Below are positions 11,787-61,195 of a stretch of 64,000 nt of DNA, piece by piece (position 1 is the stretch's first letter; every line of letters starts with the position of its first letter). The stretch lies in NCBI RefSeq assembly GCF_026240635.1, contig NZ_CP110848.1:3491741-3555740 (forward strand), in the 5' to 3' direction. The position numbers and the translations under genes are program-made. This DNA comes from Trichothermofontia sichuanensis B231. Its GTDB lineage: Bacteria; Cyanobacteriota; Cyanobacteriia; B231. A model generated the notes under the pieces. The model was given only the letters and a program-made list of their open reading frames with translations, did no database searches and was not told where the DNA came from.

Positions 11787-11898
11787 GGCTCTTCTGGGAT
11801 TTTGGGGTAAACAGTATCAGCAACTACAAATAAACGATCGGAAACGTTGAGTTTATGGTGGGGGCGCGTAGCGCCCCCACCATAAACTCAGGAGAGCC
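11787..11898 (+). repeat. Family B MITE-like element, copy 1 (intact)
   Basis: A 112-bp element with ends GGCTCTTCTG and CAGGAGAGCC, near-perfect inverted repeats. It holds a large palindrome centred on GCGCGTAGCGC (about 11850-11890). ATCAATA is found on both sides (one more matching base if the element starts one base later), which is the target duplication. This uninterrupted copy serves as the reference for the nested insertions at 15029 and 49450. Confidence 0.85.
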
Positions 11899-14035: not shown

Positions 14036-14842
14036 TTAGGACTGGGCGATCGGTGGCTGAAAGGTATAGAGGTTTTCAATCACCCGGACCCAACCGTGAC
14101 TCAGGGCCGCCAGCAGGCGATCGCCCTTTTCCCGCGTCGCCGAGAGGGGATCGCCCATCACGCCACTCTGGCTGATATCCTGCGTTACCCAGGCAAAGGG
14201 CAACTCACCTTCCACACTCAGGAGGCTATCCGCCGGTAAATCAGGGGGATATTCAGCCACAGCCTGGTCCATGTGGACGTAATCAGGCAGTAGGGCCAGC
14301 ATGAGGCTGGTTTCCGCATCGCCCGCATGGATCCCCAGTGCTCGCTCTTTGGGGGTTAACAGGGTCTCCCCCCCGTGGGGAACTCGCCAGACAAAGAGGG
14401 GAAAAACCCAGAAATCCCCATAGCGTTGGTGCAAATCCCGTGCAGCCATCTCAACAATCTGGGGTTGGCCACCGTGGGCATTAACAAAGGCCAGCTTGCG
14501 AAATCCCGCCCGGTAGAGGCTTTCTCCGACTTCCATTAACAGGGCTAAGAGGGTCTGGGCCGTGAGGGTGATGGTACCGGGGAAATGCCAGTGTTCGTTG
14601 GATTTACCGTAATACAGTGTGGGCAAGGCATAGGCGGGAATTGCAGGACTCAGATCCCGCAGCGCTTGACCCACAACGGCTGTTGCGATCGCGCTATCGA
14701 CAATCAGGGGGAGGTGGGGACCATGTTGTTCGATCGCGCCGATCGGTTGCAGCAGCACCACTGATGCGCGATCGGGCATCGCCGCAATTTCAGTCCAGGT
14801 TAGATAAGGGAAAAACCGCTCCGGCGGGATCAACCCATGCAT
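14036..14842 (-). CDS. Creatininase-family amidohydrolase
   Basis: A 268-residue metal hydrolase of the creatininase family. The metal ligands are visible in GAIEQHGPHLPLIVDS (E38, H40, D49) and later in HAGDAETS; NAHGG is the other family motif. Members hydrolyse cyclic amides (creatinine) or related formamide intermediates, including ArfB and MftE homologues in cofactor pathways; cyanobacterial members are of unknown role. The gene converges with guaB3 with a 16-bp gap, so the two may share termination. Confidence 0.85.
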   Translation of the reverse strand: MHGLIPPERFFPYLTWTEIAAMPDRASVVLLQPIGAIEQHGPHLPLIVDSAIATAVVGQALRDLSPAIPAYALPTLYYGKSNEHWHFPGTITLTAQTLLALLMEVGESLYRAGFRKLAFVNAHGGQPQIVEMAARDLHQRYGDFWVFPLFVWRVPHGGETLLTPKERALGIHAGDAETSLMLALLPDYVHMDQAVAEYPPDLPADSLLSVEGELPFAWVTQDISQSGVMGDPLSATREKGDRLLAALSHGWVRVIENLYTFQPPIAQS

Positions 14843-15028
14843 ACAGAGATTTCCTCAAGAAGGGAATCGGCTCGGAGAGCCATCCTAACCATTAGCCATA
14901 ACCGGGCAGGCAAGATGCCTACCCCACCAGACTAGGTATCGTTGAGAATACTGCCAGATACGGTTGGATCACTGGAGCAATTTAAACAAATAATCATACT
15001 GATCATCCAATTACCCTTCAATGACAAC

Positions 15029-15246
15029 GGCTCTGCCGATATTTGGGTGTAAACCGTATAAGCAACTATGGTCAATCCAAATAAGAAGGATACAGTTTTT
15101 CACTCCTCTCTCCCGTTCTGGGAGAGAGGCTGGGGGTGAGGGTACTGTTTCAGCCTAAATTGCAATGACTATACAAACACAAGATTTAATAATGTGAGGT
15201 TGATGGTGGAAGCGCGTAGCGCTTCCACCATCAACCCAGGAGAGCC
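15029..15246 (+). repeat. Family B element, copy 2, split by a family A element
   Basis: Its ends are GGCTCTGCCG and CAGGAGAGCC. The perfect 8-bp sequence ATGACAAC flanks it at 15021-15028 and 15247-15254, so the host element itself has a clean target duplication. The interior is interrupted after GCAAC by the 107-bp element at 15067-15173; without that insertion the host is about 109 bp and aligns with 11787-11898. The large palindrome has the variant core GAAGCGCGTAGCGCTTC. Confidence 0.85.
15067..15173. repeat. Family A MITE-like element, copy 3 (nested in B)
   Basis: A full-length 107-bp copy from TATGGTCAATCC to TGACTATA, inserted in the B copy at 15029. The host reads GCAAC-TA-CAAA in the uninterrupted relative at 11787 and GCAAC-TA-(element)-TA-CAAA here, so the outer TA pairs are the target duplication and the element core is 103 bp. 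Confidence 0.88.
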
Positions 15247-15251
15247 ATGAC

Positions 15252-15454
15252 AACCTTTACCTACTTTACCTAATTGACTTAGTCCCCAGTTAAGGTTTGG
15301 GTCCCAATCCGACCGGCAGCCCTCATCCCCCAACCCCTTCGCCCAAGTGGGGCGAAGGGGAGCCGGATTTTCAAATCCCTCTCCCAGGGCCAGCGAGGAA
15401 CCTAGGGTCAGGGAATGTAAAACGGTACTTTATGATTGCGGGAGGGGCTGTACC
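15252..15454. repeat. Family C element, copy 1
   Basis: Starts CTTTACCTAATTGACTTAG and ends GGGGCTGTACC, with the typical interior: AGTTAAGGTTTGG, a CATCCCCCAACCCC block, a GGGGCGAAGGGGAGCCGG block, a CTCTCCC core and ACGGTACTTTATGATT before the end. The two ends resemble inverted repeats (TGTAGCCTTTACCT type against GTACAGCC type). It fills most of the spacer downstream of sigC. Confidence 0.6.
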
Positions 15455-15488: not shown

Positions 15489-16655
15489 CTACGAGAACGC
15501 TTCCAAATAATCTTTGATCAAATTGCGGCGCTTGGGTTGGCGGAGTTTTTGCAGGGCCTTGGCTTCAATCTGGCGTACCCGCTCCCGTGAGAGATCCAAC
15601 GCCCGGCCAATTTCCGCCAAGGAATAGGGATGGCCATCGCCTAAGCCAAAGCGCATCTGGATCACATCCCGTTCGCGGCTGGTGAGGTCAGACATCAGTT
15701 GCAGCAGATCGTTGCGGAGAGCATCCTGCATCAGGGATTCTTCTGGGGAGAGGGCATCAGTTTCGAGTAAATCCCCCAGTTCCGTATCCCGATCCTTGCC
15801 CACTTTGGTTTCCAGCGACACAGCACGGGGAACCCGCAGCAGGACTTCTCGCACCTGGGGTGGAGTCATTTCCAGTTCCTTGGCAATATCCTCAATCGAG
15901 GCGGTATGCCCTTTTTCCTGGGAAAGCTTGCGTTGGGCTTTTTTAATGCGATTAAGCTTTTCCGTAATATGCACGGGCAGACGAATCGCCCGACTTTGGG
16001 TCGCGATCGCCCGCGTGATTCCCTGGCGAATCCACCAGTAAGCATAGGTACTAAAGCGATACCCTTTCGTCGGATCAAATTTTTCAACGGCTCGTTCGAG
16101 ACCCAGCGTTCCTTCCTGAATCAGATCCAGGAGTTCAAGCCCTCGGTTTTGATACTTCTTCGCCACCGAAACCACTAGCCGCAGGTTGGCTTTGATCATG
16201 TGCTCTTTGGCCCGCATCCCCTCCGACAGCACCCGTTCTAATCGGGCCACCGATAATCCCACGAGTTCAGCCCAGGCTTGCTTACCTGCCGTCAGGATGG
16301 CCTTGAGATCGGCGATCGGCAAATTGGCTTCGTCCGCCCAGCGTTCGAGGGATGGGCGATACCCCAGGTAAGCCGTCAGGGCATCGTGGATGCGGTACAA
16401 TTCCACATACTGATACAGGATCGCATTCCCCTCTGCCGCTGCCTGATTGCGGCGTTCAACCAGGTGGATATAGTGTTGGACCTTTTGAGCTTCGGCGACT
16501 TCCTCTTCCCGGCCTAACAGACCCACCCGGCCAATTTCTTGCAGGTACAAGCGAACCAAATCAGTCGTCCGTCGCGAAGCGTGATTGGGCAGCCCACCCA
16601 ACTCTGCTGCCGTTGGGTCTAGCTCATCGAGAGTTTCTGCCATCACTGCTGCCAT
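15489..16655 (-). CDS. sigC: Group 2 RNA polymerase sigma factor, SigC-like
   Basis: A sigma-70-family factor with region 1.2 (DLVRLYLQEIGRVGLLGREEEV), region 2 (NLRLVVSVAKKYQNRGLELLDL...YWWIRQGITRAI), region 3 and the region 4.2 helix-turn-helix (RERVRQIEAKALQKLR). The long insert between regions 1.2 and 2.1 with RPSLERWA, and the end DYLEAF, resemble cyanobacterial SigC rather than SigA, whose region 1.2 and 3 sequences differ. The ATG at 16655 is preferred over 16676, because AAGAAGG sits 8 bases before it (388 residues); the longer form would have 395. SigC is non-essential and takes part in heat and stationary-phase responses in model species. An inverted repeat lies upstream at 16919-16943. 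Confidence 0.85.
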   Translation of the reverse strand: MAAVMAETLDELDPTAAELGGLPNHASRRTTDLVRLYLQEIGRVGLLGREEEVAEAQKVQHYIHLVERRNQAAAEGNAILYQYVELYRIHDALTAYLGYRPSLERWADEANLPIADLKAILTAGKQAWAELVGLSVARLERVLSEGMRAKEHMIKANLRLVVSVAKKYQNRGLELLDLIQEGTLGLERAVEKFDPTKGYRFSTYAYWWIRQGITRAIATQSRAIRLPVHITEKLNRIKKAQRKLSQEKGHTASIEDIAKELEMTPPQVREVLLRVPRAVSLETKVGKDRDTELGDLLETDALSPEESLMQDALRNDLLQLMSDLTSRERDVIQMRFGLGDGHPYSLAEIGRALDLSRERVRQIEAKALQKLRQPKRRNLIKDYLEAFS

Positions 16656-16918
16656 GTCGTCACCTTCTTGGTACATTGCTAAGCCATGAATGGGATCATT
16701 GAGGTGCTGCGGTTCACGTTCCGTTTCAGGGAAAAGGTTGCTGATGGCATTCAGCGTACCGACGATCGCAGGAGCGGTCGATCAAGCTCGTCAAGTCACC
16801 CCATCCCTGGGGCAACTTTCGCTTGCTTGCAGCTCAATCAGGAAGCCTCTGTAAACCGTACTCCCACTTATTCAGTATGCCCACTCCCGGAAGACGAGTG
16901 GTCACGACTCATCGTTCC

Positions 16919-18143: not shown

Positions 18144-18288
18144 ATACAGCCTTTACCTCATTGACTCAGTACACAGTTAAGGCTTGGATCTCGATCCAAC
18201 CGACAGCCCTCATCCCCCAACCCCTTTGCCCAAGTGGGGTGAGGGCCGCACCAGCGGGCTGCCTCCAGCCTACCCCTGTAAAACTGAG
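18144..18288. repeat. Family C element, copy 2 (right end missing)
   Basis: Starts TACAGCCTTTACCTCATTGA and runs through CAGTACACAGTTAAGG, the CATCCCCCAACCCC block, GGGGTGAGGGCCGCACC and CTGTAAAACTGAG, but lacks the CTCTCCC core and the terminal GGCTGTACC. It fills the 310-bp spacer before the glycosyltransferase gene. Confidence 0.6.
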
Positions 18289-29366: not shown

Positions 29367-29490
29367 GCCCTCATCCCCCAACCCCTTCTCCCCACTTGGG
29401 AGAAGGGGAGCCGGATTTTCAAGTCCCTCTCCTAGAGCGGGAGAGGGACTTAGGGTGAGGGCCGCACAAGTGAGGTGCACCCTGACCCAC
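29367..29490. repeat. Family C interior block
   Basis: The spacer between the Rieske gene and hsp20 (29315-29734) contains the CATCCCCCAACCCC block, GGGGAGCCGGATTTTCAAGT, the CTCTCCTAGAGCGGGAGAG hairpin and GGGTGAGGGCCGCAC, in the order seen in family C copies, but neither terminal repeat. A GGTGCACC palindrome follows. The rest of the spacer holds the hsp20 promoter region. Confidence 0.5.
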
Positions 29491-46812: not shown

Positions 46813-47040
46813 ATGTAGCCTTTACCTAATTTGTTCAGTACACCATTAAGGTTTGGATCTTGATCCGACCGAATGGCCTTCATCCCCCAACCCCTTCTCC
46901 CAAACGGGGCGAAGGGGAGCTGGATTTGCTAGTCCCTCTCCCAGAGCGGGAGAGGGATTTAGGGTGAGGGCAGCACCCGTGGGCTGCACCCAGCCTACCT
47001 ATGTGAAACTGTACTTTATAATTCAGGTACAGGCTGTACC
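46813..47040. repeat. Family C element, copy 3 (full length)
   Basis: About 228 bp, from ATGTAGCCTTTACCTAATT to CAGGTACAGGCTGTACC. The ends are imperfect inverted repeats of about 20 bp. The interior has AGTACACCATTAAGGTTTGG, the CATCCCCCAACCCC block, CTCTCCCAGAGCGGGAGAG and CTGTACTTTATAATT. This is the most complete copy. Confidence 0.65.
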
Positions 47041-49388: not shown

Positions 49389-49449
49389 GGATCAGGGTGT
49401 TTACAAAGCGTCTCGCCCTGATTTTACGGCCCTCAACCCTTGTATCTTA

Positions 49450-49665
49450 GGTTCTTCTGGGTTTATGGTGGGGGCGCGTAGCGCCCCCACCATAAACCCA
49501 GCATTTGAGTTCTTTAATTTGTAGCTTTTTGCACTGTTATAGTCATTACAATTTAGGCTGAAACAGCACCCTCACCCCCAGCCTCTCTCCCAGATCGGGA
49601 GAGAGGAGTGAAAAACTGTATCGTTCTTATTTGGATTGACCATACACCAAAATCTCAGAAGAGCC
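49450..49665 (-). repeat. Family B element, copy 3, split by a family A element
   Basis: The ends are GGTTCTTCTG and CAGAAGAGCC, in reverse orientation relative to 11787. GTATCTTA is present on both sides (49442-49449 and 49666-49673), an exact 8-bp target duplication. The interior is interrupted after GCACTGT by the 107-bp element at 49538-49644; beyond it the host resumes with CACCAAAATCTCAGAAG, matching CCCCAAAATCCCAGAAG in intact copies. Confidence 0.85.
49538..49644. repeat. Family A MITE-like element, copy 5 (nested in B)
   Basis: A full-length 107-bp copy from TATAGTCATTAC to TTGGATTGACCATA. It is inserted at the TA of the host's TTACCCC stretch, a different TA from that used at 15067, so this is a separate event. 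TA is present at both junctions. Confidence 0.86.
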
Positions 49666-49960
49666 GTATCTTAAAAGATGAGCGGGAGAGGGACCTGCAT
49701 TGATCTGGCTCCCCTTCTCCCGGCCTGGGAAAAGGAGCGGGGGGAGGAGGGCGGCTCGGAGTAAAACGGAACTTTATCAAAAAACATAAAAATTAGAATA
49801 AATCAATATTTTTTTAGATATTTTCAAATCAATTCAAATCAATAATCTCGAAATTTATCAACCATTAAGATCATCCATCTGGAGGACGTTGGCTGCTGGG
49901 AAATAGGGCACACTATTGAATAGAACCTAATGATAATTCAGGCTGTTGAAGGAGGCAACA
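49666..49960. other. Spacer before the pentapeptide repeat gene
   Basis: After the B/A element lie fragments with CTCCCCTTCTCCCGGCCTGGG (a D/C-like core) and then about 150 bp of strongly AT-rich sequence with repeats of TCAATTCAAATCAAT type. It should contain the promoter of the next gene. Confidence 0.45.
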
Positions 49961-54871: not shown

Positions 54872-54983
54872 GGCTCTTCTGAGTTTATGGTGGGGGCGCG
54901 TAGCGCCCCCACCATAAACTCAGCATTTGCGATCGTTTATTTGTAGCTGCTGATACTGCTTACCCCAAAATCCCAGAAGAACC
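54872..54983 (-). repeat. Family B element, copy 4 (intact)
   Basis: 112 bp, ends GGCTCTTCTG and CAGAAGAACC, flanked on both sides by GCCGTTAG (54864-54871 and 54984-54991), an exact 8-bp duplication. It is in the same orientation as copy 3 and is the best empty-site reference for it. It fills a large part of the 54656-55038 spacer. Confidence 0.88.
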
Positions 54984-57240: not shown

Positions 57241-57313
57241 TCACCCCCCTAGCTTACCGCTCATCAAAGCGTTAAACCCCTCAGGGATGTTCGTGGCACC
57301 AAGGTGTATTTTA

Positions 57314-57376
57314 TTTATTGCGTTTATTACGTTTATTGCGTTTATTGCGTTTATTGCGTTTATTGCGTTTATTGCG
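57314..57376. repeat. Seven-copy 9-bp tandem repeat
   Basis: TTTATTGCG repeated seven times without gaps (the second copy is TTTATTACG), with a degenerate eighth copy. It lies between the divergent ligA and antitoxin genes, about 90 bp from ligA's start and 70 bp from the antitoxin start, so copy number could affect promoter spacing of either. Confidence 0.9.
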
Positions 57377-57446
57377 TTCGTGACGCATACTGAATCACAA
57401 CGACTCTTGACAAGTGTTGACACTACCCGATATCTGGAGACGGGAC

Positions 57447-61083: not shown

Positions 61084-61195
61084 GGCTCTCCTGAGTTTAT
61101 GGTGGGGGCGCTACGCGCCCCCACCATAAACTCAACGTTTCCGATCGTTTATTTGTAGTTGCTGATACTGTTTACCCCAAAATCCCAGAAGAGCC
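61084..61195 (-). repeat. Family B element, copy 5 (intact)
   Basis: 112 bp, ends GGCTCTCCTG and CAGAAGAGCC. The flanks AAGAGAAC (61076-61083 and 61196-61203) form an exact 8-bp duplication. The palindrome core reads GCGCTACGCGC, inverted relative to the GCGCGTAGCGC core of copies 1, 3 and 4, which suggests the loop can flip. Confidence 0.88.

Follow-up and report, generated by a model that had tools for sequence, protein, structure and literature searches.

A family A element lies inside a family B element at positions 15029-15246 of the window, and the nested insertion of A into B is confirmed. The window, meaning the whole stretch of DNA that was analysed, comprises 64,000 nucleotides (3491741-3555740) of the single-contig, 4,436,989-base genome of Trichothermofontia sichuanensis B231. 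The chromosome of this thermophilic, hot-spring cyanobacterium has been published as CP110848 (PMC10172474). The nested element has a creatininase-family gene on one side and a sigma-70-type gene on the other (Table 1). Two unrelated non-autonomous elements (MITEs) almost certainly transposed in succession at this locus. The direct evidence consists of the anatomy of the elements, both target duplications, uninterrupted siblings, repeated use of the TAs of B, and nesting in the reverse direction.

In the proposed mechanism, B (112-113 bp, ISL3-derived) would first have inserted between the two genes and duplicated the 8 bp ATGACAAC. Later, A would have inserted at a TA within B and duplicated this TA, as IS630/Tc1-mariner transposases do. 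ISL3 and IS630/Tc1-type enzymes supplied in trans are the presumed drivers of B and A, respectively. The ISL3-like source of B probably survives only as a broken remnant, and a source of A was not found in the searches described below. ISL3-type MITEs, IS630/Tc1-type MITEs and nested small bacterial repeats are already known, and the A-in-B nest, though clean, is an ordinary example of one mobile element within another. The nests are useful for annotation and as a worked example; the general view of MITEs is unchanged.

Insertion of A into B at 15029-15246

The sample consisted of 944 kb of stretches together with whole-genome DNA searches, in each of which the best 40 candidates were scored. 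Strong matches in the 944-kb sample numbered 84 for A and 40 for B. As claimed in the preliminary description, the B copy at 15029 is flanked by exact 8-bp duplications, which were read on both sides. The interruption by A is likewise real; however, the length of 107 bp given for it counts the TA at each end, and the net insertion into B is 105 bp (103 bp and one extra TA). Once A is removed, B measures 113 bp. The copy at 11787, which had served as the empty site, is uninterrupted and reads GCAAC-TA-CAAA as described.

Since this young copy is only 77% identical to the interrupted B, copies of the same subfamily provide a better test of the empty site. The two parts of B were joined into a 113-bp query and searched against the whole genome, with the best 40 candidates scored. 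Uninterrupted relatives were detected at 82-89% identity. In the alignment, eight uninterrupted copies (L231, L232 and L234-L239) crossed the site with a single TA, mostly as CAAC-TA-CAAAC, and the young copy gave the same answer. An alignment of the B copies had been suggested as the means to show whether the interruption is ancestral. A was absent from this TA in the eight same-subfamily copies and in the main young B groups. Therefore, the interruption is derived, not ancestral, and A entered B after B was in place, as had been proposed.

The empty site is paralogous, being formed by other B copies in the same genome. When an orthologous empty site was sought, the intergenic query matched only repeats elsewhere among the relatives, the closest of which belong to the same class. 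A scan of named genomes gave homologous genes at 67-75% identity. A 105-bp insert placed beside a TA without duplication is formally indistinguishable from duplication of the TA; the symmetric ends of A argue for duplication.

Table 1. Features of the two nested elements in the window and of their surroundings (window positions)
Feature	Position	Strand	Basis or remark
Uninterrupted young B copy (empty site of the preliminary description)	11787-11898	+	one of 23 identical copies found
Creatininase-family gene	14036-14842	minus	
Left 8-bp target duplication of B, ATGACAAC	15021-15028		direct sequence reading
B element, 5' part (assigned as ISL3-type MITE), begins GGCTCT	15029-15066	+	aligns with eight uninterrupted same-subfamily copies
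A element (TA-inserting MITE) including both TAs	15067-15173	+	TAs 15067-15068 and 15172-15173; core 15069-15171
B element, 3' part, ends GGAGAGCC	15174-15246	+	aligns with same-subfamily uninterrupted copies
Right-hand hairpin of B, ~18-20 bp stem and 3-nt loop	15196-15239	+	folding z -8.5; covarying stem pairs across the copies
Right 8-bp target duplication of B, ATGACAAC	15247-15254		direct sequence reading
Sigma-70-type gene	15489-16676	minus	
Second nested B, left target duplication GTATCTTA	49442-49449		
Second B element interrupted by A	49450-49665	-	uninterrupted siblings L261-L263, 94-96% identity
A inside second B, at TA of GGTG-TA-ACAG (B orientation)	49538-49644	-	
Second nested B, right target duplication GTATCTTA	49666-49673		

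Nests at other sites and in the reverse direction

The A of the second nest in the window, a nest that the preliminary description does not mention, uses a different TA of B than that at 15029. Further A-in-B nests were detected at L224, L204 and L244, several different TAs of B being used, and fragments of B lie next to A at L197, L046 and L056. L244 (1585859-1586063) is interrupted at the same TA as 15029, and its A shows 8/107 differences. Because A is reversed in L244, this nest is an independent event. L204 is also interrupted at this TA, but there A sits in another, diverged B copy. Both interruptions are best read as separate events from that at 15029.

Window position 49538 and L224 (4311583) have the B subfamily, the TA position and the orientation of A in common, and their B target duplications differ. 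This agreement would fit a single ancestral A-in-B element that moved as a unit, so that the nest predates the locus. However, the two As differ at 12/107 positions and are not nearest neighbours, which favours independent hits on one TA. Furthermore, uninterrupted siblings exist for both subfamilies, and, apart from 15029 itself, one nest of the same subfamily was found at that TA, with its A reversed. Movement as a composite is highly improbable, and for 15029 this reading is largely refuted.

At L056, A lies between the first TA of B and a TA near the right end of B, and the middle of B is missing. This arrangement resembles what a deletion from one TA of a B copy to another would leave, as though two copies of A had recombined with each other. 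Such an event, like the ~391 A right ends in the genome, which make recombination among copies likely, would favour the view that A entered B not by transposition but through gene conversion or homologous recombination involving another copy of A. In contrast, an uninterrupted B had no A sequence to serve as partner, and the junctions lie at TA with exactly one extra TA at several different TAs of B. We consider entry by recombination extremely improbable, and successive transposition is the preferred reading.

Nesting in the reverse direction was also observed: young-type B copies lie inside A copies at L007 and L193, at the same place in A, with the duplications AACGATAC / AACGACAC. Five A-in-B nests were counted among the 84 A copies in the 944 kb, against 2.8 expected when A picks TAs outside long ORFs, and no clear preference of A for B was observed.

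Family B, its ISL3 relatives and its hairpin

B is a multicopy element of 112-113 bp, far too small for a transposase gene, and 141 matches to its hairpin were found. Duplications of 8 bp (≤1 mismatch), the target duplication of ISL3-family MITEs, were present around 71 of the 93 B copies, as compared with 0.9% of mismatched controls. An ISL3 remnant from ~3638790 onward begins GGCTCTTCTGGGTTTTTGGTG and encodes ISL3 zinc-ribbon and HTH domains. It is frameshifted and stops short at a young B that has TGACTTAT on each side. Instead of an intact ISL3 transposase gene, only this frameshifted and truncated remnant was found in this genome. ISL3 relatives in other cyanobacteria are 1.23-1.25 kb long with GG(C/T/G)TCT ends, and six of them possess exact 8-bp duplications (GTAGAGTC, AGAAAGTG, GCATATCC, GACTAATC, AGAATTTC and AGATGCCC). 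Ends starting with GG(C/T)TCT are common to B and the ISL3 elements (remnant, GGCTCTTCTGGGTTTTTGGTG; relative L312, GGCTCTCCTGAGTTTATGGTG), and the end of one relative matches the right end of B over ~21 bp. Because of the 8-bp duplications and the remnant and relatives with matching ends, B is, as judged from its sequence, an ISL3-type MITE. B also has homologues, each exactly 112 bp long, in G007, a distant cyanobacterium of the same class; three of them have exact 8-bp duplications. An ISL3 relative is represented in G007 by an open frame of 389 residues.

At L174 (3638741-3638800), a solitary B hairpin that has a GGCTCTTCTGAG end abuts the left end of the ISL3 remnant. Among the relatives in other cyanobacteria, the ISL3-type transposase genes of L301-L303, L305, L307, L308, L311 and L312 occupy two frames, with the break at a run of ~7-9 A and the second part in the -1 frame in most, and those of L304 and L324 are in one frame. 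The split genes suggest that this subgroup of ISL3 uses frameshifting or undergoes transcriptional slippage.

A MITE of Microcystis aeruginosa PCC 7806 has been assigned to ISL3 transposases by shared ends, according to the excerpt of PMC11448079. Like B, it is cyanobacterial, with ends starting GGCTCTTC, 8-bp direct repeats and a stem-loop. It is 187 nt long, whereas B is 112 nt, and the likeness is one of ends. No nesting is described in the excerpt, whereas B is nested here. Nezha is likewise a cyanobacterial MITE, as B and A are, known here from the citation of Zhou et al. 2008 in PMC10969869.

The hairpin stem of 20 pairs was kept across the B copies. Compensating changes on both sides of a pair were found in 43 cells, as compared with 43 changed only on the 5' side and 32 only on the 3' side, counts that are inflated by the shared descent of the copies. 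Between the consensus B of this genome and that of G007, 38 of 40 stem positions are identical, as against 27 of 40 in the middle, and in some G007 copies a T-A pair of the stem has become G-C. The 20-bp hairpin thus outlasts the divergence of the remaining element. The right-hand hairpin is possibly, though rather doubtfully, a functional part of B maintained through paired changes; if so, it could serve as a transposition signal or as a structure useful to the host. Selection and DNA-level correction of palindromes are both possible causes of its conservation.

Otherwise identical B copies differ in the orientation of the hairpin centre, which reads either GCGC-GTA-GCGC or GCGC-TAC-GCGC (e.g. 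23 vs 3 and 18 vs 7 copies), as if the tip of the palindrome flips. The sites include window positions 11848-11891, 54880-54923 and 61092-61135 and other B copies.

Family A and the order of the insertions

The ends of A, TATGGTCA / TGACTATA, are near-perfect inverted repeats. The terminal inverted repeats (TATGGTCA / TATAGTCA) extend, with interruptions, for ~29 bp, and A folds on itself. Uninterrupted siblings carry one TA at the site and interrupted copies carry two. Most A copies sit outside long ORFs. The right end of A occurs ~391 times in this genome and was not detected in the reversed-pattern control. It was not found within 3 mismatches in 389 other cyanobacterial genomes, nor as an exact match in viral contigs, and plasmids gave only one short 40-bp match.

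Around the resident DDE_3 (IS630-type) transposases for which element ends could be located, no A-type ends were found, and the 944-kb sample yielded no longer element bounded by such ends. Paired A ends 1.9-2.4 kb apart were considered as candidates for an autonomous A, and proved to belong to distinct A copies or fragments beside unrelated genes. By its TA target and inverted ends, A works like an IS630/Tc1-mariner MITE. Since no IS630-type element with the ends of A was found, A is likened to such MITEs and not placed among them as a proven member. No enzyme source could be detected for the roughly 390 copies of A that persist in this genome.

RUP of Streptococcus pneumoniae has TA as its target. 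RUP is a 107-bp high-copy MITE with ends matching IS630-Spn1 (PMC3049150), and resembles A in length, high copy number and its link to IS630. Its host is unrelated to that of A, and its presumed IS630 partner is common in that host, whereas a partner of A was not found in the searches above; RUP and A are likened by description, not by sequence (PMC3049150).

The median divergence of A copies from their own consensus is 6 of 107 positions. Two large B groups consist of identical copies (23 and 18 found) and look recent, and the A-in-B nests that were found involve diverged B copies. The simplest order we infer begins with old B, followed by A and finally by young B, as read from divergence and nesting and not from a dated history. 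The nests thus allow two waves of small mobile elements to be placed in time relative to each other without recourse to related strains.

A third repeat family (CCCTCATCCCCCAACCCC...) was observed at window positions 15264-15434, 18151-18245, 29367-29482 and 46820-46991. Many other cyanobacterial genomes contain partial matches to this family, which resembles the interior of A. A 9-bp unit, GTTTATTGC, forms a tandem array at window positions 57304-57393.
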